From NCBI GenBank assembly GCA_028693815.1, contig JAQUUP010000017.1:1-43320 (forward strand): 43,320 nucleotides of DNA, given 5' to 3'. Of this stretch, positions 10,432 through 31,710 are shown one piece after another. The notes beneath the pieces were generated by a model. It was not told the origin of the DNA and did no database searches. It saw only the letters and a list, made by a program, of their open reading frames with translations. Position 1 is the stretch's first letter. Each line of letters starts with the position of its first letter. The position numbers were made by a program, and so were the translations under genes. The stretch is from Candidatus Omnitrophota bacterium (GTDB lineage Bacteria > Omnitrophota > Gorgyraeia > Zapsychrales > Aceulaceae).

Positions 10432-10465
10432 GGGCCCTATTCTCACCTTTTCGAGAATAGGGCCC
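10432..10465 (+). promoter_or_regulatory. Leader hairpin, 13-bp perfect stem (copy 2), likely expression platform
   Basis: Stem 10432-10444 with 10453-10465, identical to the copy at 7129-7162. Its loop and 3' arm (10446-10458) are perfectly complementary over 13 bases to the 5' strand of the riboswitch (10329-10341), so the two structures can exclude each other. It lies about 25 bases before the ribosome site. Confidence 0.75.
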
Positions 10466-10500
10466 AACTTGTTTAACACGCAACAAAACAGGAGAAAAAA

Positions 10501-14784: not shown

Positions 14785-14801
14785 ACAGAATAAAAAAACA
14801 T

Positions 14802-14832
14802 AAAGAGCCCCCGCCTTTTGGCGGGGGCTCTT
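14802..14832 (+). terminator. Terminator stem after the second propeller gene
   Basis: The same stem as at 10091-10122 (AAAGAGCCCCCGCC, TTTT loop), but with only a short T tail. It may be less efficient, with the bidirectional terminator at 14951-14986 as backup. Confidence 0.8.
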
Positions 14833-14887
14833 ATCTTAGAATTTAAATATCAGTTTTCCTTCTATCGATCAAACAACGTCTTTTTAG

Positions 14888-14930
14888 AAAAACCCAAGGT
14901 CCACCTCGAAGGTGACACGGGTTCGCTAGA
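14888..14930. repeat. Hairpin element, copy A (flanks the giant gene pair)
   Basis: The core GTCCACCTCGAAGGTG followed by ACGGGTT is shared with 31611-31637 in the same orientation. CACCT/AGGTG forms a short stem and AACCC/GGGTT can close it. In both places a GGGCCG-type terminator follows about 25-35 bases later. It is not a tRNA and not a riboswitch class I recognise. Confidence 0.6.
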
Positions 14931-14950
14931 AACGGTATATCTTTCATATA

Positions 14951-14986
14951 AAAAAGGGCCGCAAAAATATTTTTGCGGCCCTTTTC
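14951..14986. terminator. Bidirectional terminator between convergent genes
   Basis: GGGCCGCAAAAA pairs with TTTTTGCGGCCC, with an A-run before and a T-run after, so it works in both directions. It lies directly beside the stop of the giant minus-strand gene at 14991. Confidence 0.9.
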
Positions 14987-14990
14987 TTTA

Positions 14991-17900
14991 TTAACTTTTT
15001 TTCTTATCATAAACCTGCATACTTTGACAACACAGCATAGGCTCTACAAATGAATCATCTACATAACTTAGATGCTTTTCTTTTTCATCATTCTCTTTTA
15101 AATCATCTTCTCTTAGCCCCAACAATCCCATAAAATCCGTCACAGGTGTAATGTTAATGATAATCGGCACAAATCCTTCGATGCTACTAGAGGTGATATT
15201 TTGCAGATCCAAAGGAATATCAAAATCAATCTCATCTCCTTTGGTGGTCACGTTCATATTTTCAGCGTTAAAGTCAATACCGCCTTTAAGATTGGATGAT
15301 GCAACTCCAAACTTAGTATAATAATTCTCGCTGTCTAAATCTTCGGCTTGTACCTGCCGATAATAAGTTACATACGTTCCATTTGCAGAAGACCTAGAAT
15401 TGCCATCTTTGATTATTATTCGATCTCCTTGCCTAACTATTGTTATATGCATCCTTGAAATATATTTATTGTTCAGCTGAGGAAATCTATCTTGAAGGTA
15501 CTCTCTTCCAAGGATGACACTTTCATCATCTCGCAACGCTTTATACCCTCCTTTTTCATCTGTAATATAAAAATTAATTCTTGGATTGGCAATTTCTTTA
15601 AGAGGATCCGATTCCTCCAAATCAACATTTTTTGAAATTTTTAATTTTTCTACGCCAGATAAATCGATCGTGATAGGCTTCGAGTATTCAATCTCAATAG
15701 ATTTTCTTTGAGTCAATTTAATATTTAATTGTAAATCAGCCTGTTGATAGCTTTTTATAGATGGCAAAACAGTTCTTTCAAATGCTTGATGATAAGTTTC
15801 AAACATCCCGTGTGAAGAAAAATATTTTTTATCTACATCTCCAAAATAATTCTGTGCGATATCGAAAACTCTATATGATCCACTTTTTGCTTGGTATACG
15901 GCCCAACCGTGCCCTGGACCTCTAACATAATAAACTTTACCGCGCAAATAGCCTTCTTTAATCATTTTTTCAAGAACAGAGGCAACTAAAATTCCCATAT
16001 GGCGACAAACCCCACCTTTTTCGAGAGTCTCGCCAATAAGGACTTCTTCTCCTGCCTTATCGCTAAAAGCATACTCATCATATCGAATCGCAGCATCAAC
16101 AGCGTCATAAACACTTTCGAGATAATCAAGCTTGTATAAAAGAGTATCTTGATCAGCCTTAGACTTATCAAGGTGGCTTATTGCATTCTTGTAAATTTGA
16201 TTTAAAATCTCATCGTTTTCCCAATCGACTTTGATGACTTCCCTCGTGTCTCTTCCTGATCTTCCTGTGCTCTCACCTCCAGCTATCAGATGCCCAAGAG
16301 GACCCATTTGTTTTCCAATCTCGAATGTTGACGATGCGGTATCGGCGGGGTCGATGCCACCTTTTATATCCGACGATGAGGTTGTGGCGTTGGAATCGAT
16401 ACCGCCCCTAGGGTTGAAAGGATCCTCATTTGAAATTTTACCGATTTGAGAAAATCTGTTGATCGCTTTAAAAATATTCCCATTCTCACCTTTTTGAAAA
16501 ATACCTTCCTTCACTGATTCATTCAACCCCTTGCGAAGGTTAAACTTAATTTCGGGCATTTCTTCAAATAATAAGTCTGCGAGCCATTCCAAATAATGAT
16601 AAGCACTGTCTATTTCAAAATCATTAATATCAATTGACGAGGGAATTCTGCAAGTTAAGACTGATTCATCAAACCCTTCGCTTCCTTCCTTGACCTGATA
16701 CTCAACAAATTCTGGAAAATATTCCGCAACTTCTTTTAACTTCCTAATAGAACTAAAAAAATTCTCTGAAAATTTATTAAGCTTACCATCGTGATCTAGC
16801 CATTGATTCTGAAAAGAAATCTCATCTAATAATTCCTCTATTTCATCAAAAGTCTCTTTAATTTTAAATATTCTTACCGTGATATTCTCAAGTCCTGACA
16901 GCCCTGCCAAGTCTGATCTATGATTTCCATCTAGAACAAAATAATTCCCATCCTCAAGATCCAAAACATCTATAATATTATTTTCTGTAAAATCCTTTAC
17001 GGAAGAATCGCTATCTCTTAAATAATTCATCATGCCAATTAATTTGATTAATGATGTGGCGTGTCTTCGTTTTAATTTTGAAACAGGAATTTCCTTCGTT
17101 CCTTTTTCTTCCCACCATTTTTCTTCGTCTTTCAAATCATTAATTTTATTTTTATAATAATTAATATCATTGTGAACACCTGTTTTAAGAGTCAACAAAA
17201 ATACCTCGGTAGGGACAGGCATAAACAATATTTTCTCGACTAGCTTAAAAAATGCAAGTAAATCTTTGTCTATCCTAACTTTTGTTTTTGTTTGATGATC
17301 GGCGTCAAATGCATCCAAAATGACATAGCTTCTTTCTTCGGATATCGAAAAAATATCCGACGATGCGATTTCATCGATTTTTTCGGGGTCAACAGTTTTA
17401 GAATCACCGCTCCATTCTCTGATTCCTGTGCTCTCCATAAGATTTCCATAGGCAAACAAGACATTGATCGGGGTTGTTATCGTGCTCAATGAATCTGATG
17501 TATTTCGTGAAATGGGGGCTAAAACTTTGATGCCCAATTCTTGAGCCTCACGAGTCATTTCTTCAATCGGCGGTAAACCTTTTGCATTTTTTTCAGCTCC
17601 TAGGACAATTTGGATATCGGTCATTCCTAAAGATGAATCTGTTAAATACTGTAGAACAGCTTTGTATTGTTCATATAAAGGGCCTTTTTTTCCAAAAAAA
17701 TCATTCTCTTTAGGAAATAAATGCACGTGACCGATAACCGTTTTATTGTTTTTCCTGGCTCTGATATCAAGACTCGTACAGACAGCATGCCCTAGCGAAA
17801 GAAGGGCTCCCTTTTCTTCTGGTGCTAACTCAAACAAAACAAAAGAGCCCCATCCCACCCGAATCACAAAGCCTAATTGTGGATCCTGTATAATCTGTGT

Positions 17901-20900
17901 GGCTACTGGAGAAATAGAAATTCTTCCATCCTCATTAAGCTCGTAAACTGAAACCCCTGGCGGAGCAGGTTGATCAATAGCGAAATTACTTGTGCTGACC
18001 CTATGAAATATTTTTCCTATCATTTCTTCTTTTATTTCGAAGGGCTGAGAACTTACAGCTTGCACTCCGTCGCCTATTGTTGGTATATGGCTACTGATCC
18101 CCAAAGATCTATCTTTAAAGGCAGAAGCTTTTGGCGCAATGTCGACAACGAGAAGACCGGAATAAAATGATTCAATATCCTGAAAAATTTCTGCAATCCC
18201 GTTACTAAAACCAACAATGGCGAGAAAAAATGCAAAAGAGTTGAGGTGGTCATAGATCTCATCCCCAATTTGATTAAAGGTTTTAGGGAGAAGTACTTTT
18301 TGTTTTTTAAGCAAATTTTCTCGTTCGTTTCGAAGTGATACAAAAACCCAATAAAGATACGCATCGCCAAGGTTATCAGCGTATTCTTTGGTTTCCTCAA
18401 AAGGGCGAATAATATCACTCAAATTTCTTTTTAAACCTGAAGTTCTTTCTCTTAAGCGAGCAATAAAAGGTTCGAAGTTTTCTTCTCTAAACCCTCCCTC
18501 CTTTTCCATCTCATCCACAATTTGCGTGAGATAACTTATCTTTTCATTAAACGGTTTGAGGAAACTTTCTTTATTGAAATATTTTTTGAATTTCTCAAAG
18601 CTTGAGAGGACATCAAGGACGCTGCGCAGGTTAATTTGCTTTGCAAAGCCCTTTTTCGCGAATACAGCCTGATTTCGCCCTCTAAGATTAAGGCCGAGAG
18701 TTTTTTTCAAGAAATGATAGTTCACAGGCATGTAAAGTGCACCAGAAAACCTAACCAATTCTCCCAAGCGATAGTTTTTTTCGTTTATCGCGATATCCAT
18801 TCTGCCGGAATCTACAAATTGCATCATTCCGCCTTTTGCAAGGTTATTATCATGAATTGTTTTAATAAATCTGGCAGCTCCAGGATCTAAGCTGATGCGC
18901 CCCGTAAACCCTTGTTGCTGTAATGATAAAAGATATCCGCGATCTGAAAGCTCACTGGCTGGAATTTCGTGATATTCTTCCTGCCATTTAATTTTGTTAA
19001 AAATTTTTCGGTCGAAATTCTTTAAAGATTTGATATCTTCATTTTTAATAAAATTTTTTATATCTTCGATAGTGTATGAATGTCCCAAGGAATCCAAAAC
19101 AATCTCGTTTGGCTTCATGTCAACGTATCCACGCAAGAACAACTTCTTAAAACCATCAAAGGTGACTTCAATAATTTCTTTAGGCAACGAATTGAGAATG
19201 AGATTGCCTCGGATAAGAAGGGCCTTTGGCAGATCTTTTGGTGGATTCAAGGCATCTGCTTGGACAAACTTAAAAATTTCCGGGTAACGACCAAGACGCG
19301 TTGATGATCGCAGAAACATGATTATTCTTTCTGAGTAGTCCATTACGTAATAACGTAGGCGCCCTAAATAATGGGTTCCTTTTTCTCGATCAAGATTCTC
19401 AAGCGCACGAAAGAAAATCCAAGCAGAGTATCCGTCCCCAGCACCCCATTCATGGACTACAATTTCCAGCGGCAATGTGTGTTGTCGATCCATTTCTCGT
19501 ATCTGTTCATAAAATTGCTCAGCACTTGCTTGGGCAGTGGCTTGGTCTAGGTTTCCTTCAGTGCGGTCTTTACTCCCCATTCCAAAGGCCTCTTCACCAA
19601 AGACACCATAATATAATTTGTTAAGGATATTCATAACGCTGTTGGTTTTATTTAGCGGAAAATAGCCATTTTGAAACCATGCAGATTCATCGATTTTTTG
19701 ATTTTCAACAACCACCTCTCCATCGTCCATTGATTCTATTGGTTCAGAATTCTCATCGGTGTAGGCGCGGAGGACACGATGCGGTCTTGTTTCTATTGAT
19801 ACGATCCTAGATTCTGTTTCTATGATAGTAGTTTTTGCGTTTTCAACATTTTCGAGACCCATATTAGCGATACCGTCCTCATCGTAACCATCGCTAATTA
19901 CCTGATCGAAAGAAGCTTGCGCAAGTTTTCTGTAAATTCTTGATTTAGGCCACAGAGATAGCCCCTTTTGAGAGAGAATCTCGGAATTATCTACGTTCAT
20001 GACAATATCAGCTGTGTTGCCGATGGCTAGGCTTAAGAGGTTATTCTTTAGGGTAATATTATCTATGATAAGCGCCATGGATTCCTTTTTTTGTTCGAAA
20101 TATTCATCAAAACTTTGATTTGCAGGTTTCGATTGTAAAATATTCTTTATAGCAATCAACTGATTGATAAGCAAATCATAGTCTGCCGAGGATAATTTTG
20201 ATCTTCCATCAACAGCAACAAAGAAGCTTTCCCGTGGAGCACCTTTAGGAAAATATAAGAATTTTTTTATGTCGGATTTCAACAAGATGGCTGCTTCAAT
20301 TTCCTCGAGTACCTTGGTGTAATTATTTTCTGGTACTGGAATAACCGACGATGAGATTTCGGTGGAGTTGCTCTCGCCAGGATTGCGCTCTTGTTTCTTA
20401 ATATCCGACGATGCGGTTGTGGTTGGGTCGATACCATCCAAATTCGATGAAACCACAGTCTTTGCCTGGCTTATCGGAGTATCTGGCAAAGAAGAAAAAT
20501 CAATATAATACATTTTATATGGATCAGGATCAGAAAGATGATATCCTCTTTTATTACAATAACGATTTAAGACTTCCAGCATTTGTGAAGAATAATTTGG
20601 AACATCCACAGCCGCTTGCGTATCAGGAGAAATATAGAAATCATTAAAAGAAAAATATAATCTCTCAATCTTTTGCAATTTAACCTGATTAATAATTTTA
20701 TCAAGCATTACAAATACATTATCATCATTTTCATATTTTTTATCTAATACAAAACTTTCTAAATTAAATCCATTGTTTTGTTTTACTTTCTTTAAAAAAG
20801 GCTTTTGATATCCTGCATACCCGACAAGATCGCCGGATTCAACAAACAACAAGAAATCAGTCTTGTCATTTAAAACATGATCCCAAAAACCAAAGTTCAG

Positions 20901-23900
20901 ACGTCTTTGATCAAAATTGAAGTCACTATTTCGTTTAGAATGAAGGTGTTTCATCTTTGAAGAGAAATGAGACTTCACCAAACTATTTGAAAAATCTTGA
21001 AAATACAATCCATCCTTATATTTATTTGGATAAAACGTAATCTCAAGGCGATTATTGACTCTCGGATCCTTAGAATAAGAAAGGTTAACATTTAGATTTA
21101 AATACCGAGCTAAATCTTTAGACACTTTTTGATCAGAAACGAACACCTTGTTTATAACAATTCTCTCCTCTCCTATTTTCTCCATAAAATCAGAAATAGA
21201 CTCCATCATCTTTCTTAAAACCTGATAACTATATTCTTGCGAATCAATTTCAATATTACGAATATTAAGATAATTGTTCGTGTCACTTTCTTCAATAATA
21301 CCTCTATTTATTCTCTTTTTTAATGATTTGCGAGAAAGACCAGCATGATTAATAAAATTATCCGTTTCAAGCAATACTGTACCTACAGGATCGTCATTGT
21401 CATCTACAACAAAAAACTCAATCTGATCAAACTTTTCAGCGTCTTGCATTCTTATTTCTTTTCCCGTTTTTTTGTTATAAATAAAAACTTTCAGATCACC
21501 AATATCCGACGATGCGGTTTGGGCGGGGTCGGAATGCTCGGCAGTTTCAATAGGTGTTTCAATCAAAAATTCCTGTTCCCCTGGGGTCACGACAGGGCCC
21601 TTCGAATCGTTTTGCACAACATCTGAAGCACCGCCTTCTTCTAGCCAATATCCGTCGCTGCCACCATCCGTTGGCAAAAATCCTTTTTTAAGCTGATGCT
21701 TTAAGGCTCCTTTACCAAAACCGTCTAAAGATACACCATCCCCACCAGCCGGATCTTTCGGCAAGTCCTTCTTGATAAACCGTCCATCTTGCTCAAACAG
21801 CTTCCCGATAACATGAGCTAAAAGAATATCGCTGGGAAGCCTTAAGTCTTCCCAGGCTTCAATAATCTCTTCTCTCTTTCCTTCTAAGACCTTATAAGCT
21901 TTTAGAACCTCTCGAATGTCCTCTATAGTCTTTTCTCTTGTAAACACTAAGTTCTCAGATTCATTAATCAAATCTTTAATCTCTGGGACATCCATTTTCA
22001 ACTGTTCAAGAATTTCTTTGTACCAGGATTGTGCATCAATATTGCTAAGAGAATGGAATCGAACTAGGATTTCTAAAATATCTTTAAGATCAAGCATCAG
22101 AAACTCTAATGCTCCTAAAGGCTCATCTCTTTCCATCCAATTTTCAACATGTTCTACAATTTCTTGTTTAATGGTATCTTTATATGCTCTGTTTCCTTCA
22201 GGCTGAACACCAAGAAGATATTGCTTAAAAGCATCCACGCTATCTTTTGTCGTGCTGAAAAACTGATCTAGCTGAGCCTCTGCATATCCCCAGGCACTGC
22301 TATATTGATTTTCCGCTGTAATATTTTCAAGATCCAAAGCCTTCAATATCTGTTGACTAGCTTTTTTGTATGCAGTCGTCCCAGAAAATTCTTTTGCCTT
22401 TACGCGCAATTCATGTATTCTTTGGATAAAGAATTCTGGCCCAACAATCGCCTGATAACCACCCAAGACATCTTCTAAAACTTCATTAAAAATATCTAGG
22501 GCTACTGAGGCGTTTTTCTCTGTAATGACATCACGATTTAGGGAATCTTCGAACATGGCCATAAGAATCTCAGCTTGAGCATCAAAGACAGCTTGGCGAA
22601 TTTCAAGGGCATATTGTTTACCTTCTTTTGTTTTTCTAAAACTTTGGATTTGTTCATAGAGTTTTTTAAGCTGAGGCCACTTATCTACCGTCCACTTTAT
22701 GCTAAAAGCTTCATAGCATTCAGCCTTTGTTAGAATCTGCTCAATTTGCGTAATAAATTCTTTAATAATAGGGCTAAGTTTTTTATCTAAAGATGCTTTT
22801 CTTGATTCTGGCTTATATTGACTCAACAAACCATTTCCTAAGATCGCATATGCCGTCTTTATGCGGCTAGAATCCAGATGACCATAAGGATTATTAATAT
22901 CTTCATCACTTATTTGTGCAACTTGAAAAAGGTCAATGCGATCATCTTTTTGAGAATCGTTCTCATTGTATAATTTTCCTCCCCCAGGCACTAAATGTCC
23001 AAAAGTTGCAACGTCAGAAGGAACATAATCTGTATAGCTCGGAAAATGCGTGCTTATCTCAAGAAGGGCTAATGCCAAAAGCTTAGGTTCTTGTTTAAAA
23101 TCGTCTGTGTTGTTGTCTGTAAACAAGCCGTCAACTTGCAAAGATTCCTGAAGCACAATATTCTTAAGATTCCCTTTGCTATCTTTTGCTGTCAAGCCCA
23201 ATGGTTTTATTAATCCTAAGCGAATAAGATTCTTAGTCATTAAATCTCCAAACAACGAACTAATAGACGGGTTAAGATGCAGTTCAAGGCATTTCTTTTC
23301 GTTTTGCCAAGAATGATTCTGAAAACGCAATGCAATGCTTGGCGCTAGATTTCGAAGAGCTTGGCCTTTATCGTCATCAGGGTTAATGTCCAAATGAATC
23401 TTGCCTCCTGATGTAGCAAAATTCTTAAAGAATTCTTTTTTAAGAGCATAGCGCTTGAATTTATCCTGATATTTCTTAAGATCAAAAGATTCACTGCTTT
23501 CCCGCAACTCATTAATATATTCAAGATTAATAGCAGACTCTTCAAAAAATGTTAACCCGAGCTCTTTGTGTTCTCCTAGCGTCATAAAAAGTTTTAAATT
23601 AGCTTCTTGGAGAACTTTGGTGTAATCTGCATAATGGCTCTCGATATTATCTCCTAATTTTCTTAATTGATTAAGATAATCGTTAAAGCTCAAATTTTCT
23701 TCAAACAGGGATTGAAGAACATCAAAAGATATATAGACGTAGCTTCCTGCACCTTGATTGAGCTTAGTAAGCTCAGGCGTTAAGTTAGAAATAGTTGCAA
23801 CAAAGTTATCTTTGGTGACCTTGCCCTTTTCAATACCTTGCGCAATCAAAAACTGAAGAGTTTTAAGAGCTCTAAGGGAGAAAAACCCGCCTACGTTATG

Positions 23901-26900
23901 GGCGAGCCTAACGCATTCTGCTACAACAACAGCAAAGTCATCTTTGGTGGTAATCATACCCTTTACCATTCCTATCGTTAGAAAGAGTTCAAGAGCTTTA
24001 TAAGATTTAGGAATACCGTTGTTCGCAGAATTAGCGCATTCTTCTAAAACAGCAAAGAAATCATCTTTAGTAGTAATCATACCGCTTGTAATGCCTAATG
24101 CAAACAAGGATTCAAAAGCTTCAAGGGACTCATCCACAACATATCCAGCGCCTTGGGCGAATTTAGCGCATCCTGCTGTAGCAGCAACAAAATCATTTTT
24201 GGTGGTAATCATGTCATTCTTACTGCCTAACGCGAGCAAAGATTGAAGAGCTTCAAGAGATTTAGGAATGGCAAATGTTGCACTTTGATAGATCCTAACA
24301 AGATGAGGGATTAGCTGAACTAACGCTTTCTTTGTCTCTTCACTTGGATTAAAATTCTCACCTTCAATATCTTCTCCAGCAACGTAAGATAACAACGAAT
24401 AAAGAACTTTCTTAAGCTCATCCTTTTCCGAAAATGAAGGAACTGTTGGTAACTTTACAAAAGCTAAGTCGTCTCTCGAATTTATCTTCGAATACATCTT
24501 AATCTTTTTTTCATATTGGGCGAGAATAGCTTTCTCATATTCCCCCTTAATCTCCTCCCATGACATTTCAGCCCCCATCGAGAGATCGCCTTGTTTTTCC
24601 TCTATGTCCGACGATGCAGTTTCAGCATTAAAGGCACTGTCATCAGCAGCTTCAGACTTTTCATTAAGAGATGATGACCCTGTTGGCTTGATCTCTTCTC
24701 CAAAAGTAATTGATTTGTCTAACTTTTCGTTAATTAGCCTTTCAAGTTTTTCTAAGGTATAGCCTTTTTGTTGTAACGCCTTTGGAATGTCAATTTTTGT
24801 AATTGGTTTTGGTTTTCTTATTCTTCTCAGATCATCATTAGCTATTTCTAGTTGAAATTCTCGAAATTTTTCATTAGAAAGAAGAACAAGCGCTTTTTTT
24901 TCGACTTCTCTTTTTTCTTTGGAGGTTTTTGCTGCATAATAAGCATTTACTAGATACCAAAAGGCCTGCCCATCTTTTTTTTCATTGGTTCCTTCGATCA
25001 CTTTTTCTGCAAAATTGATAAAATCTAGATAAGAAGTTTTTTCATGATTAACATTTTCACGGGTGATAACTTGGATAATTCTTATTCCAAGGTTCATGTT
25101 AGCAACTGCTTCAGTGTTGACGGGCTTATCGTCTATAAAAACAATTTCTGTTGCGTCAATTGGGTTACCTTCTTCTGCTGCTTTGGCTTGGAGTGGTTCA
25201 ATAGTTGCTTTTAACGCCTCTGCTTTAATTTTCCCCTCCCCTGATGTAAAAATAACTTGGTCAATAATAAACTTGTCTTTGTCATGATCGCCGGGCTGTC
25301 TTTTGCTTTTTTTATTAATAATTCCTAGAGATTGCAATACATGCAAAGTTACTTTTTCCTTGAGTTTTGGTCGTGCTGTAAAAGCTCTAATTTTTAAACT
25401 ATTTGTTGCGTCTCCTTTAAGTTCTTTTAAATCCTCTCTTCTAAGACCATCAGACATTTCAAGGAATCCAGAATCAGCCATATTTTTTTCGTCTTTATCG
25501 CCTTGTGTGTATACAACCCTTTGAGCTTTTTTAATGCTTTTTTCTGCAAGCTCTTGTATTTCATCATCATTCGGTATTTTTTTACTGGAGTTTTTTCCTA
25601 TTTTTAGAATTTCTGAAAGGAAAATATTTAGGGCTAATATTTTAATGCTAATCTCTTTTTGAATTTCTGAACCGATATATCCATTTGGCCAAAAAAAGCT
25701 ATTGTCTAAATCAAACAATATTAATCTTAATGCTCCTTTAGCCGCCTTTTCTTTAAGATCTGCCATAATATCTACCATCATCATTTTTTCAATAGATGAA
25801 GAAGATGATATAGCGTTAGGTTCCTCAAAACTTGGTATTTCAGTTAAGCTCGTATTAACGTCGTTAAGAACAACTTCTATCTTGTAATCATTTTTTGGTA
25901 AGCCGTTTTCTTGAATATATTCAAGAGCGATTTCCTTTCCCACTGAGTTAAATGTTGAATCCAATACCCAGCTCACGCCCCCCGAAAAATACTTTCTTGG
26001 AATATTTTTATGGGCATATTGATCATATTCAACTTTGATAAAGTCACAAACACCTTTTTTAAAAGAATCAACATATTGATTGTAGATATCTTGCGAGACA
26101 TCTTTAACGTCCACTCCCCTAATCTTGCTTTGATCAGAATAGACTTTGTTTATAATAGATTCTTTTAAGTTATGCTTAAACCAATAGGCTAGAATAAGAG
26201 AATTATATATCTGACGAAGCTTGGCAAAATTCTTGCCCGTATTAACTTCTTTTTCAAGAGCTGGGATGATGATTTCACGGATGATTTCTTTGGAGAAATC
26301 ATTCTGAGTATTTGGTATTTGGGATATGGTATTTGGTTGTTGATTATCGCCATATACTAAATACTCTTCACTAAATACCTGTTGCTTTGCTTGCAAAGCA
26401 ACATAGTCCGTCTCTAACATAACCTTTAATTTTGACTCCACCACAAAGGCCCTATCTTCTTGAACGTACACTTCTGCCTTCTCAGGCATGATCCAGACCT
26501 TGTTAAAGGTATCTACCGGGATATTAGCCCGGTCAAATTCACCTTGTGAATTTGACGAGGTCTCGCCATCTTTTAGATGGCGGATTGTTCCGTACTCCTC
26601 ATAAACTTTTTTATACACTCTATCCCAAAATTGTCTTCCTATCTTTTCATCTGGATTCATCAGAGATGCTGTGATTTGCTTTAAGATATAGTCTTGAGCT
26701 AACATGTCTGTACCCATATCTGTAGATCCAAGAATATCAGGAATAATTCGATCTTGTTCATGGGGAGAAAGATTAACCCATAGGTTATCTTCAGGAATTG
26801 TAAGGGCTGCTAGAAAGTATTTGATAAGTTTTTCAGATTCATTCTTTAATGCAGTGCCTGTAAGTCCAGTGTCACCAGAATCGACGATAAAGTCGAATTT

Positions 26901-27116
26901 AAGAGAATTGTTAGGATAGACTCTTATTCCACGAAGAATGGTAGGTGTGAACACTGGACTTAAAGACACCATAGTTCCCGGCACAGGAAGTCCTAACACT
27001 CCTTGGGCCAAGGCTTGAGATGGGATAACAACAGTTGCAAAAAAGCAGGCTAAGACAATGAGGCTGATTGTCTTAAATAGTATTCTAAATTTATTCTGCT
27101 TTACTATGCTTGTCAC
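14991..27116 (-). CDS. Giant secreted multidomain protein (4041 aa)
   Basis: Start is GTG at 27116; its last two bases are the first two of the preceding gene's TGA (4-bp overlap), so the two genes are coupled. Residues 1-38 are a signal peptide ending SQALAQ. Residues about 39-395 form a module shared with the 1388-aa paralogue (GVLGLPVPGTMVSLSPVFTP). Then, approximately: HAD-like region 464-665 (LFDLDN, VFIDDKP); four helical repeats with TTKDDF 960-1130; two GNAT-like regions 1872-2230; methyltransferase-like region near 2555 (HEWGAGDG); ParB-like loop near 3396 (FVLDGNHR); transglutaminase-like domain with C in GGVCRHMG (3703), H in GHGW (3737) and D in FDIAQNY (3750); FHA domain 3853-3916 (ILGR, SRMH, NGTY). 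A GGIDFNAENMNV module ends it. Linkers ending TASSDI separate blocks. The overall function is unknown; domain calls range from strong (FHA, transglutaminase) to tentative (GNAT, methyltransferase). Confidence 0.88.
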   Translation of the reverse strand: MTSIVKQNKFRILFKTISLIVLACFFATVVIPSQALAQGVLGLPVPGTMVSLSPVFTPTILRGIRVYPNNSLKFDFIVDSGDTGLTGTALKNESEKLIKYFLAALTIPEDNLWVNLSPHEQDRIIPDILGSTDMGTDMLAQDYILKQITASLMNPDEKIGRQFWDRVYKKVYEEYGTIRHLKDGETSSNSQGEFDRANIPVDTFNKVWIMPEKAEVYVQEDRAFVVESKLKVMLETDYVALQAKQQVFSEEYLVYGDNQQPNTISQIPNTQNDFSKEIIREIIIPALEKEVNTGKNFAKLRQIYNSLILAYWFKHNLKESIINKVYSDQSKIRGVDVKDVSQDIYNQYVDSFKKGVCDFIKVEYDQYAHKNIPRKYFSGGVSWVLDSTFNSVGKEIALEYIQENGLPKNDYKIEVVLNDVNTSLTEIPSFEEPNAISSSSSIEKMMMVDIMADLKEKAAKGALRLILFDLDNSFFWPNGYIGSEIQKEISIKILALNIFLSEILKIGKNSSKKIPNDDEIQELAEKSIKKAQRVVYTQGDKDEKNMADSGFLEMSDGLRREDLKELKGDATNSLKIRAFTARPKLKEKVTLHVLQSLGIINKKSKRQPGDHDKDKFIIDQVIFTSGEGKIKAEALKATIEPLQAKAAEEGNPIDATEIVFIDDKPVNTEAVANMNLGIRIIQVITRENVNHEKTSYLDFINFAEKVIEGTNEKKDGQAFWYLVNAYYAAKTSKEKREVEKKALVLLSNEKFREFQLEIANDDLRRIRKPKPITKIDIPKALQQKGYTLEKLERLINEKLDKSITFGEEIKPTGSSSLNEKSEAADDSAFNAETASSDIEEKQGDLSMGAEMSWEEIKGEYEKAILAQYEKKIKMYSKINSRDDLAFVKLPTVPSFSEKDELKKVLYSLLSYVAGEDIEGENFNPSEETKKALVQLIPHLVRIYQSATFAIPKSLEALQSLLALGSKNDMITTKNDFVAATAGCAKFAQGAGYVVDESLEAFESLFALGITSGMITTKDDFFAVLEECANSANNGIPKSYKALELFLTIGMVKGMITTKDDFAVVVAECVRLAHNVGGFFSLRALKTLQFLIAQGIEKGKVTKDNFVATISNLTPELTKLNQGAGSYVYISFDVLQSLFEENLSFNDYLNQLRKLGDNIESHYADYTKVLQEANLKLFMTLGEHKELGLTFFEESAINLEYINELRESSESFDLKKYQDKFKRYALKKEFFKNFATSGGKIHLDINPDDDKGQALRNLAPSIALRFQNHSWQNEKKCLELHLNPSISSLFGDLMTKNLIRLGLIKPLGLTAKDSKGNLKNIVLQESLQVDGLFTDNNTDDFKQEPKLLALALLEISTHFPSYTDYVPSDVATFGHLVPGGGKLYNENDSQKDDRIDLFQVAQISDEDINNPYGHLDSSRIKTAYAILGNGLLSQYKPESRKASLDKKLSPIIKEFITQIEQILTKAECYEAFSIKWTVDKWPQLKKLYEQIQSFRKTKEGKQYALEIRQAVFDAQAEILMAMFEDSLNRDVITEKNASVALDIFNEVLEDVLGGYQAIVGPEFFIQRIHELRVKAKEFSGTTAYKKASQQILKALDLENITAENQYSSAWGYAEAQLDQFFSTTKDSVDAFKQYLLGVQPEGNRAYKDTIKQEIVEHVENWMERDEPLGALEFLMLDLKDILEILVRFHSLSNIDAQSWYKEILEQLKMDVPEIKDLINESENLVFTREKTIEDIREVLKAYKVLEGKREEIIEAWEDLRLPSDILLAHVIGKLFEQDGRFIKKDLPKDPAGGDGVSLDGFGKGALKHQLKKGFLPTDGGSDGYWLEEGGASDVVQNDSKGPVVTPGEQEFLIETPIETAEHSDPAQTASSDIGDLKVFIYNKKTGKEIRMQDAEKFDQIEFFVVDDNDDPVGTVLLETDNFINHAGLSRKSLKKRINRGIIEESDTNNYLNIRNIEIDSQEYSYQVLRKMMESISDFMEKIGEERIVINKVFVSDQKVSKDLARYLNLNVNLSYSKDPRVNNRLEITFYPNKYKDGLYFQDFSNSLVKSHFSSKMKHLHSKRNSDFNFDQRRLNFGFWDHVLNDKTDFLLFVESGDLVGYAGYQKPFLKKVKQNNGFNLESFVLDKKYENDDNVFVMLDKIINQVKLQKIERLYFSFNDFYISPDTQAAVDVPNYSSQMLEVLNRYCNKRGYHLSDPDPYKMYYIDFSSLPDTPISQAKTVVSSNLDGIDPTTTASSDIKKQERNPGESNSTEISSSVIPVPENNYTKVLEEIEAAILLKSDIKKFLYFPKGAPRESFFVAVDGRSKLSSADYDLLINQLIAIKNILQSKPANQSFDEYFEQKKESMALIIDNITLKNNLLSLAIGNTADIVMNVDNSEILSQKGLSLWPKSRIYRKLAQASFDQVISDGYDEDGIANMGLENVENAKTTIIETESRIVSIETRPHRVLRAYTDENSEPIESMDDGEVVVENQKIDESAWFQNGYFPLNKTNSVMNILNKLYYGVFGEEAFGMGSKDRTEGNLDQATAQASAEQFYEQIREMDRQHTLPLEIVVHEWGAGDGYSAWIFFRALENLDREKGTHYLGRLRYYVMDYSERIIMFLRSSTRLGRYPEIFKFVQADALNPPKDLPKALLIRGNLILNSLPKEIIEVTFDGFKKLFLRGYVDMKPNEIVLDSLGHSYTIEDIKNFIKNEDIKSLKNFDRKIFNKIKWQEEYHEIPASELSDRGYLLSLQQQGFTGRISLDPGAARFIKTIHDNNLAKGGMMQFVDSGRMDIAINEKNYRLGELVRFSGALYMPVNYHFLKKTLGLNLRGRNQAVFAKKGFAKQINLRSVLDVLSSFEKFKKYFNKESFLKPFNEKISYLTQIVDEMEKEGGFREENFEPFIARLRERTSGLKRNLSDIIRPFEETKEYADNLGDAYLYWVFVSLRNERENLLKKQKVLLPKTFNQIGDEIYDHLNSFAFFLAIVGFSNGIAEIFQDIESFYSGLLVVDIAPKASAFKDRSLGISSHIPTIGDGVQAVSSQPFEIKEEMIGKIFHRVSTSNFAIDQPAPPGVSVYELNEDGRISISPVATQIIQDPQLGFVIRVGWGSFVLFELAPEEKGALLSLGHAVCTSLDIRARKNNKTVIGHVHLFPKENDFFGKKGPLYEQYKAVLQYLTDSSLGMTDIQIVLGAEKNAKGLPPIEEMTREAQELGIKVLAPISRNTSDSLSTITTPINVLFAYGNLMESTGIREWSGDSKTVDPEKIDEIASSDIFSISEERSYVILDAFDADHQTKTKVRIDKDLLAFFKLVEKILFMPVPTEVFLLTLKTGVHNDINYYKNKINDLKDEEKWWEEKGTKEIPVSKLKRRHATSLIKLIGMMNYLRDSDSSVKDFTENNIIDVLDLEDGNYFVLDGNHRSDLAGLSGLENITVRIFKIKETFDEIEELLDEISFQNQWLDHDGKLNKFSENFFSSIRKLKEVAEYFPEFVEYQVKEGSEGFDESVLTCRIPSSIDINDFEIDSAYHYLEWLADLLFEEMPEIKFNLRKGLNESVKEGIFQKGENGNIFKAINRFSQIGKISNEDPFNPRGGIDSNATTSSSDIKGGIDPADTASSTFEIGKQMGPLGHLIAGGESTGRSGRDTREVIKVDWENDEILNQIYKNAISHLDKSKADQDTLLYKLDYLESVYDAVDAAIRYDEYAFSDKAGEEVLIGETLEKGGVCRHMGILVASVLEKMIKEGYLRGKVYYVRGPGHGWAVYQAKSGSYRVFDIAQNYFGDVDKKYFSSHGMFETYHQAFERTVLPSIKSYQQADLQLNIKLTQRKSIEIEYSKPITIDLSGVEKLKISKNVDLEESDPLKEIANPRINFYITDEKGGYKALRDDESVILGREYLQDRFPQLNNKYISRMHITIVRQGDRIIIKDGNSRSSANGTYVTYYRQVQAEDLDSENYYTKFGVASSNLKGGIDFNAENMNVTTKGDEIDFDIPLDLQNITSSSIEGFVPIIINITPVTDFMGLLGLREDDLKENDEKEKHLSYVDDSFVEPMLCCQSMQVYDKKKS
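16328..16403 (-). repeat. Two adjacent linker repeats (GGID..TASS, GGID..SSSDI)
   Basis: Two copies of the recurrent linker stand back to back: one reading GIDPADTASS and one GIDSNATTSSSDI. They mark the boundary before the transglutaminase-like domain of the giant protein. The DNA words (CATCGTCGGATAT on the minus strand and variants) are shared with the other linker sites. Confidence 0.7.
17353..17390 (-). repeat. Linker repeat DPEKIDEIASSDI
   Basis: Recurrent interdomain linker of the giant protein (about residue 3250), just before the ParB-like region. It has the shared DNA word for ASSDI. Confidence 0.65.
20341..20438 (-). repeat. Linker repeats GIDPTTTASSDI and STEISSSVI
   Basis: A full linker (20401-20438) and a divergent copy (20341-20370) lie 30 bp apart, ahead of the methyltransferase-like block of the giant protein. 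Confidence 0.65.
21502..21531 (-). repeat. Linker repeat DPAQTASSDI
   Basis: Recurrent linker at about residue 1868 of the giant protein, immediately before the first GNAT-like region. The DNA is nearly identical to the copy at 20401. Confidence 0.7.
24603..24631 (-). repeat. Linker repeat FNAETASSDI
   Basis: Recurrent linker at about residue 835 of the giant protein, between the HAD-containing block and the helical-repeat block. A weaker relative (TGSSSL) lies about 70 bp upstream in the gene. Confidence 0.65.
26300..26402. repeat. Variable in-frame segment with short irregular repeats and a perfect palindrome
   Basis: Short words such as ATTTGG and ATACTAAATAC recur. The segment ends in a 22-bp palindrome at 26381-26402 (GTTGCTTTGC, 2-base loop, GCAAAGCAAC). 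The paralogous gene has different, also repetitive, sequence at the same site (about 30450-30530). Confidence 0.6.
26526..26585. repeat. In-frame insertion made of two inverted repeats
   Basis: GTCAAATTCAC/GTGAATTTGAC (26532-26542 and 26546-26556) and CGCCATCT/AGATGGCG (26564-26571 and 26575-26582) are perfect hairpins side by side. They encode about 19 residues (RHLKDGETSSNSQGEFDRA) missing from the paralogue, which reads straight from EEYGT to NIPVDTF. Confidence 0.75.
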
Positions 27117-30100
27117 GATACTTTATCTCCTGCAAGTTCATGTTGACTAATCTGTTTTTCTTTAATTTCATCATCTGCATCAAGGCCGAGTAATCCCATA
27201 AAATCCGTCACAGGGGTAATGTTAATAATAATCGGCACAAACCCTTCAATGCTGCTAGAGGTGATATTTTGCATGTCCAACGGAAGATTAAAATTAATCT
27301 CGCCTCCCTTTGTTGTGACGTTCATATTTTCAGCATTAAAGTCAATACCGCCTTTTATCGTTGACGATACTTTTCCTTTTTTACCCGCCTTCTTTTTTGA
27401 TTCATTTTCTCTATTTACTTCACTAAGCTTGGCCTCAATAATATCTAAACTTTCTGGTGATGGCGTATACTGACCATCCGTTAAAGTTTTTTCAATCTTT
27501 CGAAAATGATAATTAACTTTTTCTCTTCTTCTTCTTTGTCTATTTAAGAAATCAACACCTGCCATTCCACTCTTAACGTGTGCATAATACTCAATATCAT
27601 TTTTACTATATCGAGAAGCAACGCCAAAAAGGAAATCAAACAAAACCGCAGGGCTTTGTTGATACGGATAAATACTTTCTTCCTGAAACTCTGGGTTAAG
27701 ATCAATAATCTCATTCATTAATCTTAATGTTAATTGTTGAAGTTCTTGCGGACTTGGATGCATATTAAAAAGTCCATAAATCAGCATCATAGAAAATTTC
27801 TGAAGATCCATCTCGCTTAACCCTTCTGGCAAAATCCATTTTTGCTCAAGTCCCATTTCAAGATTTTGAGACAAAAATCGATTATTTTCCAAATATTTTT
27901 TTAAATTTGGCGTTTGATATACTTCTGAAAAATTTTTAGGAGATAAATATTTATCAATAAGATCTAAAACTTGATTTGATAATGGTGATTGTACTGTCTC
28001 TTGAATGCTATTAATCGTGCTACTAGCAATTTTCAACTTCCCATCCATCGCCTCTGTTCTTATTGCCTCTTGATTTCGACCATTCCAGAAAAAAGTGTGA
28101 TCAATTCCATAACCTACTACAGAAGTATCGCTGGCATCAACAAGGTTGATAAGCTTTGCGGATTTTGTTCCAGCTATCCAGACAGACAAGTTTTGTCCTT
28201 GGCTTACGGCAAGACCAACAGCTTCGCTTAATTTTTGAGCAACGTCGTCATTTTTCTTTATTTCAAACGTTTCCCCACCAGCTTGATAGCTAAAAATATC
28301 TTTAAAATCTTCTGATGCAACCGGAGAAACTTTTAAAATATTTTTCTTATCTAAACTTTTCTTAAAAATTTTCATATCTCTTAATACTTTTGCTCCGCCG
28401 CCAACTTTTGCAGCATTTTCATGAACTTGCATATAGCCTTCATCCTCTGATCTTTTCCAACCAAAACCTTTTTTATATAAAATATTTCTTCCTGAAACAA
28501 ATCCTGTATTGTAATATAAATATATCCAAAATTCTTTTTGTTCTTCAGAAAGTGTTTTCCACTTTTCTGAACCCCATTTATTATCAACATCCTTTTTAAA
28601 TTGTTCTTTTCCATGAGCTAACTCCGTAGCAATTCCTTTTAGTGCTTGGTTTTCTTTTATTACAATCATTCTAAGCTGCATGCCGCCTTCGTTCTTTTCA
28701 GGAGAAAGTAATTTTTCAATTTTAATTCTTATTCCCGCTTTCAATAGCAAAGGAAGATCGTAATAAAGTCTATCAATTCCTATATCTCGATAAGTATCGA
28801 CATTTCGATTAGAGTTATATCCACCGTTATATCGGTTTTTAAGATGTACCTCTGCTCCTCCTTCTTGAGCATAAGCCGCCATAATAAATTCTGGGCTTAA
28901 TCCAGTAAGTTCAGAGGCTAAATATAAATCATGAACATAATCTGAATTTAGAAATCCAATTAAGCCGATAGGTTTTATTCCTTGGAAAAAATTTGCAGCA
29001 TTTTCTTTGTATTGAAAATACTTAGGAAGAGAATTATTTATAATTTTAAGATATAGTTTTTTAGCGTTATCAGCTGTTTGATCAACTTTTGCAGAATCTA
29101 TTTGAGGTTCCTTTTTGAGATTAGCGAGGGTTCCGCTTAATATTGAATCCATCTCTTCTTTGAAAGAAGGATATTTTTCATATAAAGATGAATAAAGTGG
29201 TTCGTATGCACGCGCTGCCCAGGGGTCTTGTTTTGCAGAATACAAGATTGTTTCTACGGCAAAATCTTCGTTTTTATACTGATCTGCATAAGCGAGTGCT
29301 GCATGAGGACTTTTTTCCCGAACGCTTGCCACTGTTTCTTCTACTCCTGAAATGTGCTTGTATTTTCCTAAGGAAGAAAAAAAGATCCAGGGATCTTTTG
29401 AAAGAACATCATTTACTATTTTTGGCGCGGAAGGTGAATCTTTGTAAAAATTAAAGAATTTTGCAGCTTCAAATAAATAATCACTTGAAGAAGATATTAA
29501 AAGTCGTTCAGAAAAAACAAATCCTTTGTAATCGTTATAATGATAAAAAGCATTTAAAGGCTTGTTTGGAAAAATAATCTCTAAGATTTCTTCAGCAAAT
29601 GAAAAATTTCTATACTTTGGAATCATTGACGTCATTAATCCTGGGGATACCTTTGCAAAAACAAATAATAAATCTTTTCGAAAAGGAGTATTGATTAAGC
29701 TGTCAATAGCTCTAGCGGCACTTATCGGATCTTCTTCTATTTTTAAGGAAAGCAATTTTTTAGCAAATGGTTTATTGATGAATTCATTCATTCTTGCAAA
29801 ACAAACTACAGGATCTAAGTTTTGATACGCTTCAATTGTCTTTGCCGTGTTTTCAGGAGAACTATCGTCACCTTTAGATAAATCGATAGATGCGGAGCTA
29901 GGTGCATCTTTTGCTGTAGTCGTCATTTCTAGTGGATCAAAGGCTCCATTTTCATACGCTATCGCCTCTTGGCTCCCGAAAAAGCTAAACGCTGCTGTTA
30001 TAAGTATGATGGTTATTGCTTTCTTAAATCTTTTAAGAATCGCGCTCCCTGCTTCTTGCCCTTCAAGCGTATCAGACTTAATAAATTCAACACTTTCTCC

Positions 30101-31279
30101 AATTTTAAGTTTTCCAGTAAATCCCCCCGAAAAATACTTTCTTGGAATATTTTTATGGGCATATTGATCATATTCGACCTTGATAAAGTCACAGACACCT
30201 TTCTTAAAAGAATCAACATATTGATTGTAAATATCTTGCGAGACATCTTTAATGTCCACTCCCCTAATCTTGCTTTGATCCGAATAGACTTTATTGACAA
30301 TTGATTCTTTTAAGTTATGTTTAAACCAGTACGCTAAAATGAGAGAATTATAGATTTGTCTCAAGGAAGCAAAGTTCTTTCCTGTGTTAACTTCTTTTTC
30401 TAAAGCAGGGACAATGATTTCACGGACAATGTCTGAAGCTAATTTATTCCGTGAAGAGTGAAGCGTATCTTGTGAAGCGTTTGGCGTTTCACGATTCACG
30501 CTTAACGTTTCACTTGCGTGAGTTAGCGCGAGGTAGTCCTCTTCCAACATAACCTTCAACCTTGATTCCACTACAAAAGCTCTATCTTCTTGAACATACA
30601 CTTCAGCCTTTTCAGGCATGATCCAGACCTTGTTAAAGGTATCTACCGGGATATTGGTGGTTCCATATTCTTCATAGGCTTTCTTATAGATTTCTTGCCA
30701 GAACTGCTTACCTAGTTCATCTTCTGGATACATTAAAGAAGCAGTAACTTGCTTTAAGATATAGTCTTGAGCCAACATATCTGTGCCCATATCTGTTTGG
30801 GCAAGGCTATCTGGAATGATTCGATCTTGTTCATGGGGAGACAAGTTTACCCAGAGATTATCTTCTGGAATAGTCAGTGCTGCTAGGAAGTATTTGATTA
30901 ATTTCTCTGATTCGGCTTTTAAATGAGCGCCTGACTTACGAAAGCCTTCGGCTTTCGTCAAGTCAGCCTGCGCGAATTTACTCCGTGAGCCTTGCGACCC
31001 AGCAAGGCGAGTCGGAGCTTCCTCGCTTTCAATTATTTCATCTCCAGCGTCAACAATAAAATCGAACTTCAGCGGCTCATTGGGATAGACTCTTATTCCA
31101 CGAAGAATGGTAGGTGTGAACACTGGACTTAAAGACACCATAGTTCCCACCGCAGGAAGTCCTAATACTCCTTGGGCCATGGCTTGAGATGGGATAATGC
31201 TAGTGACCGTAAAAAAAAACATTACGGCTAAAGCAGTGATTTTTAAAGAAATATGACTTTTATTTTTATACTGAAACAT
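27113..31279 (-). CDS. Secreted paralogue of the giant protein with a lysozyme-like region (1388 aa)
   Basis: The signal peptide (MFQYKNKSHISLKITALAVM, ending SQAMAQ) is followed by the N-terminal module shared with the 4041-aa protein (to about residue 385). A hydrophobic segment lies at about 415-435 (ITIILITAAFSFF). A long helical region at about 450-720 looks like degenerate helical repeats. From about 785 a lysozyme/transglycosylase-like stretch is suggested by GLSPEFIMAAYAQEGGAE, with a candidate acidic catalytic residue, and later by FWIYLYYNTGF; this is tentative. The end repeats the GGIDFNAENMNV and SSSIEGFVPIIINI module of the giant protein. Ribosome site AAGGGG; start ATG at 31279. 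Its stop overlaps the start of the giant gene by 4 bp, so it leads the two-gene operon. Hydrolysis of peptidoglycan is an inference only. Confidence 0.85.
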   Translation of the reverse strand: MFQYKNKSHISLKITALAVMFFFTVTSIIPSQAMAQGVLGLPAVGTMVSLSPVFTPTILRGIRVYPNEPLKFDFIVDAGDEIIESEEAPTRLAGSQGSRSKFAQADLTKAEGFRKSGAHLKAESEKLIKYFLAALTIPEDNLWVNLSPHEQDRIIPDSLAQTDMGTDMLAQDYILKQVTASLMYPEDELGKQFWQEIYKKAYEEYGTTNIPVDTFNKVWIMPEKAEVYVQEDRAFVVESRLKVMLEEDYLALTHASETLSVNRETPNASQDTLHSSRNKLASDIVREIIVPALEKEVNTGKNFASLRQIYNSLILAYWFKHNLKESIVNKVYSDQSKIRGVDIKDVSQDIYNQYVDSFKKGVCDFIKVEYDQYAHKNIPRKYFSGGFTGKLKIGESVEFIKSDTLEGQEAGSAILKRFKKAITIILITAAFSFFGSQEAIAYENGAFDPLEMTTTAKDAPSSASIDLSKGDDSSPENTAKTIEAYQNLDPVVCFARMNEFINKPFAKKLLSLKIEEDPISAARAIDSLINTPFRKDLLFVFAKVSPGLMTSMIPKYRNFSFAEEILEIIFPNKPLNAFYHYNDYKGFVFSERLLISSSSDYLFEAAKFFNFYKDSPSAPKIVNDVLSKDPWIFFSSLGKYKHISGVEETVASVREKSPHAALAYADQYKNEDFAVETILYSAKQDPWAARAYEPLYSSLYEKYPSFKEEMDSILSGTLANLKKEPQIDSAKVDQTADNAKKLYLKIINNSLPKYFQYKENAANFFQGIKPIGLIGFLNSDYVHDLYLASELTGLSPEFIMAAYAQEGGAEVHLKNRYNGGYNSNRNVDTYRDIGIDRLYYDLPLLLKAGIRIKIEKLLSPEKNEGGMQLRMIVIKENQALKGIATELAHGKEQFKKDVDNKWGSEKWKTLSEEQKEFWIYLYYNTGFVSGRNILYKKGFGWKRSEDEGYMQVHENAAKVGGGAKVLRDMKIFKKSLDKKNILKVSPVASEDFKDIFSYQAGGETFEIKKNDDVAQKLSEAVGLAVSQGQNLSVWIAGTKSAKLINLVDASDTSVVGYGIDHTFFWNGRNQEAIRTEAMDGKLKIASSTINSIQETVQSPLSNQVLDLIDKYLSPKNFSEVYQTPNLKKYLENNRFLSQNLEMGLEQKWILPEGLSEMDLQKFSMMLIYGLFNMHPSPQELQQLTLRLMNEIIDLNPEFQEESIYPYQQSPAVLFDFLFGVASRYSKNDIEYYAHVKSGMAGVDFLNRQRRRREKVNYHFRKIEKTLTDGQYTPSPESLDIIEAKLSEVNRENESKKKAGKKGKVSSTIKGGIDFNAENMNVTTKGGEINFNLPLDMQNITSSSIEGFVPIIINITPVTDFMGLLGLDADDEIKEKQISQHELAGDKVS
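30926..31030. repeat. In-frame insertion of nested inverted repeats
   Basis: A 15-bp stem with one bulge spans 30932-30965 (TGACTT + ACGAAAGCC with GGCTTTCGT + C + AAGTCA). A nested hairpin spans 30981-31017 (CTCCG.. GCCTTGC with GCAAGGC.. CGGAG). Together they encode about 30 residues (PTRLAGSQGSRS and on) with no counterpart in the 4041-aa paralogue. Confidence 0.75.
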
Positions 31280-31329
31280 CGTCCCCTTCTCCGTATATAT
31301 GTATATACAATTCCTATCCTAACTATAAA

Positions 31330-31357
31330 AGTATAAACTATATATATGTGTTTTAAA
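31330..31357 (-). promoter_or_regulatory. Promoter of the giant gene pair
   Basis: On the minus strand TATACT (31330-31335) is preceded after 16 bp by TTTAAA (31352-31357). The leader is about 45 bases with ribosome site AAGGGG. The -35 is weak, which fits an activator-dependent promoter. Confidence 0.5.
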
Positions 31358-31377
31358 GGGGGTTTGGGGTGTTTCGG

Positions 31378-31389
31378 GAAAGCGCTTTC
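31378..31389. promoter_or_regulatory. Palindromic operator GAAAGCGCTTTC
   Basis: A perfect 12-bp palindrome in the style of LacI-family/cre sites, 42 bp upstream of the -10. Close relatives (GAAAGCGTTTGC, GAAAGCGCTTGC) stand at the same distance before the two propeller genes. Confidence 0.6.
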
Positions 31390-31399
31390 AAATGAAACC

Positions 31400-31474
31400 C
31401 AAGCTTACAGAATAAAATGATGTAAGCTTGCAGGTTGAATTTGTCCCGTTTTTCACAAAGTGAAAAATCGGGAC
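31400..31474. repeat. Two strong inverted repeats upstream of the giant operon
   Basis: CAAGCTTACA/TGTAAGCTTG (31400-31409 and 31421-31430), and GTCCCG + TTTTTCAC type arms (31443-31456 and 31460-31474) with one bulged base. They lie beyond the operator and could be regulatory or remnants of palindromic elements. Confidence 0.65.
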
Positions 31475-31524
31475 TTCATTAAACGAATCTTATCGGGGTA
31501 TCCTTATCAAGAAGTGCGTCAAGG

Positions 31525-31595
31525 CACATGTCACAAGACACATGTCACAAAAACCATGTTCAACCTCGCACCCTAACGGGCACAGGTAGGTTGAA
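31525..31595. repeat. Direct repeat CACATGTCACAA x2 and a long hairpin
   Basis: CACATGTCACAA occurs at 31525-31536 and 31539-31550. TTCAACCT (31559-31566) pairs with AGGTTGAA (31588-31595) around a C/G-rich internal part. No gene is seen in 31280-31710; the region is structured, noncoding DNA. Confidence 0.55.
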
Positions 31596-31603
31596 TTGGT
31601 TGC

Positions 31604-31640
31604 TAAACCAAAAGTCCACCTCGAAGGTGGTACGGGTTTT
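31604..31640. repeat. Hairpin element, copy B
   Basis: Second copy of the element at 14888-14930, with GTCCACCTCGAAGGTG identical and ACGGGTT three bases later. The two copies are direct repeats at either side of the giant gene pair. Confidence 0.6.
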
Positions 31641-31652
31641 TTGAAATCTATG

Positions 31653-31690
31653 AAAAAGGGCCGACCCACAAACGCGGGGCGGCCCTTTTC
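31653..31690. terminator. Terminator after glgC, usable in both directions
   Basis: GGGCCG..CCC pairs with GGG..GGCCC, with an A-run on one side and a T-run on the other. It ends glgC on the minus strand, 20 bp after the stop. Confidence 0.85.
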
Positions 31691-31710
31691 TTCATTATAT
31701 TATCTTAATC

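Follow-up and report, generated by a model that had tools for sequence, protein, structure and literature searches.

Head-and-tail proteins of Omnitrophota enclose exchangeable, cysteine-poor payloads and may form an exported cargo family

What are two giant neighbouring genes that agree at their ends and differ everywhere between? The question is raised by the 43,320-nucleotide contig stretch of a Candidatus Omnitrophota bacterium analysed here (JAQUUP010000017.1, positions 1 to 43,320; the window), in which two reverse-strand genes, A and B (Table 1), encode very long proteins. An earlier sequence-only reading had described them as sharing a signal peptide, an N-terminal module and a C-terminal module around unrelated middles, and this description held. 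BLASTP of A against B returned two segments, both at the termini (A7-382/B5-388, 66% over 409 columns; A3940-4017/B1305-1378, 78% over 78 columns), and nothing between them, the middles showing no homology that would mark them as diverged homologues. Both N-termini fit the pattern of a Sec-I signal peptide. Behind it follows a head of about 345 residues, then the payload, and finally a tail of 57 residues that begins with GGIDF. The shared ends are also similar as DNA, with stretches of 79% identity over 548 bp, 78% over 254 bp, 88% over 157 bp and 89% over 164 bp, and the 66-bp identity reported between the two heads is exact. The start of A lies 4 bp inside B and the overlap reads GTGA, which makes translational coupling of the two genes plausible.

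The modules are not confined to A and B. The same pair recurs in about 20 further genes of the genome containing the window (a 1.90-Mb assembly; the own genome), and the head-tail architecture is therefore far beyond chance. Profile searches of the assembly detected about 20 genes with the head and 18 places with the tail, and the regions fetched for these comprise 24 open reading frame (ORF) pieces totalling 42,970 amino acids (aa), or 6.8% of the genome length. The outer flanks of the pieces at the end of contig C23 and the start of C20 match both sides of locus L119, so that the two are probably one gene split between contigs, and the own family numbers at least 21 head-tail genes, A and B included. 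In an alignment of 19 own heads, which spans the whole module, 63 columns are invariant and every head closes with YFSGG; the own tails have GGID...G...P.II in common, with weaker outliers; the payloads enclosed are mostly unrelated to one another. In two own members the gene is interrupted, leaving separate head and tail ORFs (C2:81201-81207 and C42:5229-5293), whether by decay, assembly error or a genuine split. Several contig ends fall in or at head-tail genes (the starts of C1, C2, C42 and C20 and the end of C23), as would happen where nearly identical heads and tails interrupt assembly.

Beyond the own genome, we sampled 285 Omnitrophota genomes, 36 of them from the same order. Head and tail were both present in 34 of the 36, the other two having neither, and many same-order genomes contained at least 20 tails each. 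An organism-named search covering Ca. Aceula and many other metagenome-assembled genomes of Omnitrophota yielded 80 complete head ORFs, of which 74 had a tail within 47 residues of their end, as the idea of constant ends around an exchangeable cargo had implied. Of the six without a called tail, three were followed directly by a tail ORF, two contained runs of N and one had a sub-threshold tail-like end. The tail consensus, GGID...GFxPVIINITP...LLG, stands at or near the protein end. The head extends to more distant members of the class, at E values mostly of 1e-50 to 1e-75, and there usually closes in Y-x-S-G-G; most of these proteins also have a GGID motif, placed 10-140 residues before the C-terminus, after which other tail sequences stand. 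The head/tail bracket is therefore probably older than the present tail sequence. We found no description of this family in the openly accessible literature, subscription journals and preprints lying outside that coverage.

Payloads are exchanged at fixed loci. The variable interval between the genes for ETF-alpha and GlgC that holds A and B in the window measures 66 bp in G289, of the same genus, and 81 bp in G045, of the same family, and in G176, also of the same genus, it holds one head-tail gene of 1813 aa. The head of this gene is 72% and its tail 70% identical to those of B and its promoter region matches that of B (78% over 140 bp); the two payloads are unrelated, that of the G176 gene resembling instead the own gene C2:1-3468 (46%). 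Other syntenic pairs had heads 49-80% identical and payloads ranging from unrelated to 26-38%, with neighbouring housekeeping genes mostly 65-95% identical. Thus the payload differs between congeners at the same locus while the heads are conserved. The common heads, tails and promoter regions also support recent exchange between paralogs, which the sequence-only reading had proposed.

Much of what can be recognised in the payloads is enzymatic. Own-genome payloads include PEP synthase domains, histidine phosphatase, HMGL-like, response regulator, Nudix, methyltransferase, cytidylyltransferase-like, cupin, FHA and other domains, several of the matches being weak. The payload of A shows HAD-like, GNAT-like, methyltransferase-like and transglutaminase-like motifs by eye, and a lysozyme-like part suggested for B found no backing, with no Pfam family and no PDB match at E<=1. 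In the relatives, for which we considered the top 25 families per scan, the matches listed include PGK, enolase, GAPDH, PGI, TIM, FBPase, PGM/PMM, UDPGP, starch synthase, glycogen debranching enzyme, glutamate-type dehydrogenase and PEP synthase and, besides these, ankyrin, TPR, ABC1 kinase and more. Pathway neighbours are joined in single proteins: L262 (2991 aa) has GAPDH twice, PGK, enolase and class II aldolase, L169 has PGK and enolase, and L280 and L281 have PGI and PGM. Conserved motifs are intact in the GAPDH and PGK of L262, the enolase of L169 and the PGI of L280, which makes these copies candidates for catalytic activity. Ordinary short copies of PGK, PGI, enolase and GAPDH are present in nearly all of 54 genomes of the order. 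The embedded PGI is of the full-length, 650-bit type and the ordinary one of a type of about 430 aa scoring 80-100 bits; judged by these sequences, the former is not a simple recent duplicate of the latter. Embedded PGKs fell outside the ordinary clade in a tree with modest support, on long branches of mostly 0.8-6 as opposed to about 0.2.

The payloads are strongly depleted in cysteine (Cys). Cys makes up 0.22% of payload residues in the own genome and 0.11% in relatives, compared with 1.18% and 1.16% for the ORFs next to them (P value 1e-41), a five- to ten-fold reduction; other classes of ORF lie higher, with 0.62% in 55 other signal-peptide ORFs and 1.38% in cytosolic-like ORFs, and the more distant class members show the same difference (0.25% versus 1.12%). 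The remaining cysteines are often catalytic, while many others have no assigned role. L262 has four in its 2991 aa: one belongs to the signal peptide, and each of its two GAPDH SNASCTTN motifs contains one. The corresponding two are kept in L125. The single Cys in the 2078-aa payload of L137 stands in the CGNAPS motif of PEP synthase, and the own protein on C21 likewise retains the Cys of its PEP-synthase CGNxPS motif. Read by eye, A and L098 have a transglutaminase-like GVCRHMG and L165 a CxxxCxxC cluster. Embedded PGKs have 0-1 Cys, and Cys110, which is invariant in ordinary PGK, is replaced in all copies listed. We take this pattern to reflect selection that keeps catalysis going in a setting where a free Cys carries a cost, and infer that the setting lies outside the cytoplasm.

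This pattern bears on two readings in which catalysis plays no part. Glycolytic enzymes are classic moonlighting surface proteins, and the payloads might be displayed as adhesins or decoys. Two of the Streptomyces head proteins described below carry LAETG-type wall anchors, and giant Omnitrophota ORFs have been proposed as adhesins (PMC10066038). Adhesion, however, requires neither the retention of active-site cysteines amid the loss of nearly all others nor the joining of enzymes in pathway order; we think surface moonlighting improbable. A recombining head/tail cassette could also take in random genes that then decay, as the very long branches of the embedded PGKs, the patchy distribution of payloads and the residues lost in some copies would suggest. 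Yet the reading frames stay open over 3-12 kb, catalytic motifs and active-site cysteines survive and pathway neighbours are fused, which leaves neutral capture a very slim chance.

The evidence for export begins with the signal peptides. By a strict simple pattern rule for Sec-I signals, used in place of a dedicated predictor, they were called in 19 of 19 own members and 65 of 74 relatives, and in the own members an AxA-type site precedes Q or N. The signal junction of own members contains no Cys, and so no lipobox was seen. Own members have few hydrophobic segments, C14:18145-23424 excepted. At its start the payload of B has a second signal-peptide-like segment. Several relatives have comparable hydrophobic segments behind the head, which would fit the capture of a complete gene whose product was already secreted. 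The head was modelled with AlphaFold2 at good confidence (predicted local distance difference test, pLDDT, 80); it has no Pfam match and no significant PDB or viral fold match. The tail of A or B matched no NCBIfam or Pfam family, including PEP-CTERM, LPXTG and similar sorting tags. That the N-terminal segment is only a membrane anchor, with the enzymes working in the cytoplasm, would suit their cytosolic type and the further hydrophobic segments of a few members; with cleavable-type signals throughout, strong Cys depletion and surface-type relatives in Streptomyces, we find this barely credible.

These relatives came from a tblastn lead to plasmid proteins of 759-816 aa, in which the head core was recovered by hhalign (99.9%, E 6e-31; hypothetical proteins WP_121549542.1, WP_331747086.1, WP_251091514.1 and WP_266737726.1). 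They have signal-like N-termini, two have LAETG-type anchor matches just below the NCBIfam cut-off, and in two a hydrophobic stretch with a basic end closes the protein. In them a payload-like part precedes the head, and the gene occupies one place per plasmid record found. As the head core is common to these surface-type proteins, the comparison suggests a secretory module used across phyla and nameless in the libraries searched. On the Streptomyces plasmids L294-L297, GGIDF or GGVDF stands at both ends of the head module; a homology of the Omnitrophota tail to this GGIDF start was rejected, the match covering 13 columns with a probability of 8%. Three IMG/VR contigs, nominally viral (L291, L292 and L293), carry the head at 50-52% identity. 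An origin of the family from mobile elements was not favoured, with no head found in the phage collection.

The Streptomyces proteins, together with the constant and variable parts of the family, recall polymorphic toxins, whose payloads act against competitors and whose constant parts serve export and anchoring. Their N-terminal parts look deaminase-like (HSE..FCTRC) or PD-(D/E)xK-like by eye, but no Pfam or PDB match supports a known toxin. The logic of such systems, which the sequence-only reading had invoked, fails in its strict form for the Omnitrophota genes: the variable part is internal and not C-terminal, the payloads recognised are mostly metabolic enzymes, and no immunity gene stands next to the own members, whose neighbours are unrelated, with many housekeeping genes and no recurring small gene downstream. 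A toxin role is, in our judgement, very improbable.

We propose instead that A and B belong to a family of exported cargo proteins whose exchangeable, often enzymatic payloads work in a partner or prey cell, a proposal we consider evenly balanced between right and wrong. The Sec signal peptide and the conserved head would lead the protein out of the cytoplasm, the tail would probably be a sorting or release signal, in keeping with the earlier suggestion that the constant ends handle export or sorting, and processing may take place at the fixed junctions, YFSGG ahead of the payload and GGID behind it. The payload would often be a functional enzyme or a series of pathway neighbours, belonging in several species to glycolysis or gluconeogenesis, that steers the metabolism of the other cell to the benefit of the bacterium. 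Action in another cell is suggested because several of these enzymes need ATP, ADP or NAD, cofactors that one would not expect to meet in the periplasm or extracellularly, and because ordinary cytosolic copies are kept. A bolder form, which we find rather more doubtful, is that a second, Cys-purged central carbon pathway is exported as head-and-tail polyproteins and run inside other cells, which would parallel in bacteria the secreted hexokinases of microsporidia.

The payloads could also stay at home, in the periplasm or another extracytoplasmic compartment of the bacterium, and support a glycosome-like metabolism there. Signal peptides and Cys depletion fit this equally well, and the pathway-ordered fusions and the retention of ordinary cytosolic copies also speak for it. 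GAPDH, PGK and PEP synthase, however, need NAD, ADP or ATP, and we know of no supply of these to the bacterial periplasm; rapid replacement of payloads at fixed loci would also be unusual for core metabolism. We regard an own compartment as unlikely. Action in a partner cell draws further on the literature, in which predation, parasitism and ATP/ADP translocases have been suggested for the phylum (PMC10066038).

Several observations weigh against the exported-cargo proposal. Cys depletion points to extracytoplasmic life and is silent on which compartment; the location of the proteins and the delivery step are what we infer from the pattern as a whole, and no delivery machine was identified, no phylum-wide co-occurrence scan having been aimed at one. 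The sorting role of the tail is suggested by its position and conservation, and its fold was predicted with low confidence (predicted template modelling score, pTM, 0.25). Glycolytic payloads are patchy: among the 54 genomes of the order, embedded PGK occurs in about 10, PGI in 4, enolase in 4 and GAPDH in 2, and of that general kind the own genome has only PEP synthase and histidine phosphatase. Some embedded PGKs have lost conserved residues, and judging by this not every copy need be active. Finally, no known family accounts for most of the payload length, and this includes almost the whole of A and B.

Table 1. Positions in the window of genes A and B, their parts and associated elements
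Feature	Position	Strand	Basis
Gene B, head-payload-tail protein, 1388 aa, ATG start	27113..31279	-	ORF; family match of head and tail
B signal peptide, aa 1-35, expected cleavage AMA/Q	31175..31279	-	Sec-I-like, simple rule
B head module, aa 36-386, end PRKYFSGG	30122..31174	-	Alignments
B payload, aa 387-1309, no known family, one Cys in 923 aa	27353..30121	-	Pfam, PDB searches
Second signal-peptide-like segment at start of B payload, aa 415-441, LKRFKKAITIILITAAFSFFGSQEAIA	29957..30037	-	Read from translation
B tail module, aa 1310-1366, GGIDF...GLLGL	27182..27352	-	Alignments
Gene A, head-payload-tail protein, 4041 aa, GTG start	14991..27116	-	ORF
A signal peptide, aa 1-37, expected cleavage ALA/Q	27006..27116	-	Sec-I-like, simple rule
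A head module, aa 38-380, end PRKYFSGG	25977..27005	-	Alignments; AlphaFold2 pLDDT 80
66-bp block in A head, identical to 31083-31148 in B head	26914..26979	-	Sequence comparison
A payload, aa 381-3944, many domains	15285..25976	-	Pfam and motifs by eye
FHA domain of A, aa 3868-3917, near payload end	15366..15515	-	Pfam PF00498, E 5e-5
A tail module, aa 3945-4001, GGIDF...GLLGL	15114..15284	-	Alignments
Palindrome GAAAGCGCTTTC, LacI-family-operator-like, upstream of B	31378..31389	.	Motif search
Variable interval between ETF-alpha (5566-6762) and GlgC (31711-32931), about 25 kb	6763..31710	.	Synteny

Some further features accompany the family. Within the payloads, a linker motif ASSx[IVLF] occurs 21 times in the own genome versus 3.0 in shuffles and 26 times versus 10.4 in relatives, with no enrichment in control ORFs; in A its form TASSDI recurs at several places where domains probably meet, a feature of interest as a curiosity only. 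We also considered GGID as a separator of internal domains and rejected it, since three of its four internal matches were tail starts and 1.2 were expected. Upstream, the core of the palindrome GAAAGCGCTTTC was found at 8 of 19 own members versus about 1.4 expected, and the palindrome or a close variant also stands at C25:10749, C23:4626, C26:19610, C23:30193 and C21:20286. Several own upstream regions are near-copies of one another, and of the 16 sites genome-wide 6 lie at head-tail genes and 10 elsewhere, so that a role as putative operator of the family is suggestive only. The same variable interval of the window contains two large secreted-looking proteins on the forward strand (7127-10072 and 10501-14784) with FG-GAP repeats and carboxypeptidase-regulatory-like domains, the second also with InlB-B repeats; a protein with a similar N-terminus follows a head-tail gene at C26:24924.

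The logic of constant ends has precedents in itself, and the architecture proved far more general than the A/B pair; the surprising part is the content of Cys-purged exported enzymes. To our knowledge, no known system has a two-ended bracket carrying pathway-ordered, Cys-purged central metabolic enzymes behind a signal peptide. The defined bracket provides a means to list the cargo of many genomes. If the proposal is true, such enzymes would mean that bacteria can externalise core metabolism, and what Omnitrophota do to their partners would become testable by ordinary biochemistry. Omnitrophota are widespread, uncultured and suspected to be predators or parasites (PMC10066038), and their giant proteins have been called poorly understood. 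The giant ORFs described in PMC10066038, including that of Velamenicoccus, come from the same phylum and are likewise very long, apparently extracytoplasmic and of unknown role; they differ in exceeding 20 kb and in having transmembrane helices or adhesion domains, and the text consulted mentions neither a head/tail bracket nor a metabolic payload. The own members showed no discoidin, laminin G or dockerin domain of Pfam.

In architecture, the family can be likened to the APD1/APD2 effectors of Amoebophilus asiaticus, which also have a signal peptide, a conserved N-terminal part, many paralogs and a varied remainder, and whose varied effector parts behind the conserved prodomain are thought to be deployed in parallel (PMC3482391). 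The likeness is one of layout: in APD1/APD2 the prodomain follows a lipobox and the variable part lies at the C-terminus, whereas in the head-tail family no lipobox was seen and a conserved tail closes the protein. Polymorphic toxin systems similarly combine a constant trafficking part with a recombining variable part (Zhang et al. 2012, PMC3482391), but theirs is a C-terminal toxin with an immunity gene, as opposed to an internal part of mostly metabolic enzymes. The Streptomyces proteins share the homologous head core, the GGIDF/GGVDF junctions and the signal-like N-terminus, and differ in placing a payload-like part before the head and a wall or membrane anchor where the tail would be. By analogy, the nearest functional parallel is found in the microsporidia, whose hexokinases are secreted and thought to act on host metabolism (PMC6460350, PMC3976299, PMC5113988). 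These are eukaryotic parasites exporting a single enzyme with no head or tail modules, and the resemblance would be one of working and not of descent: a normally cytosolic enzyme of sugar metabolism equipped with a signal peptide.

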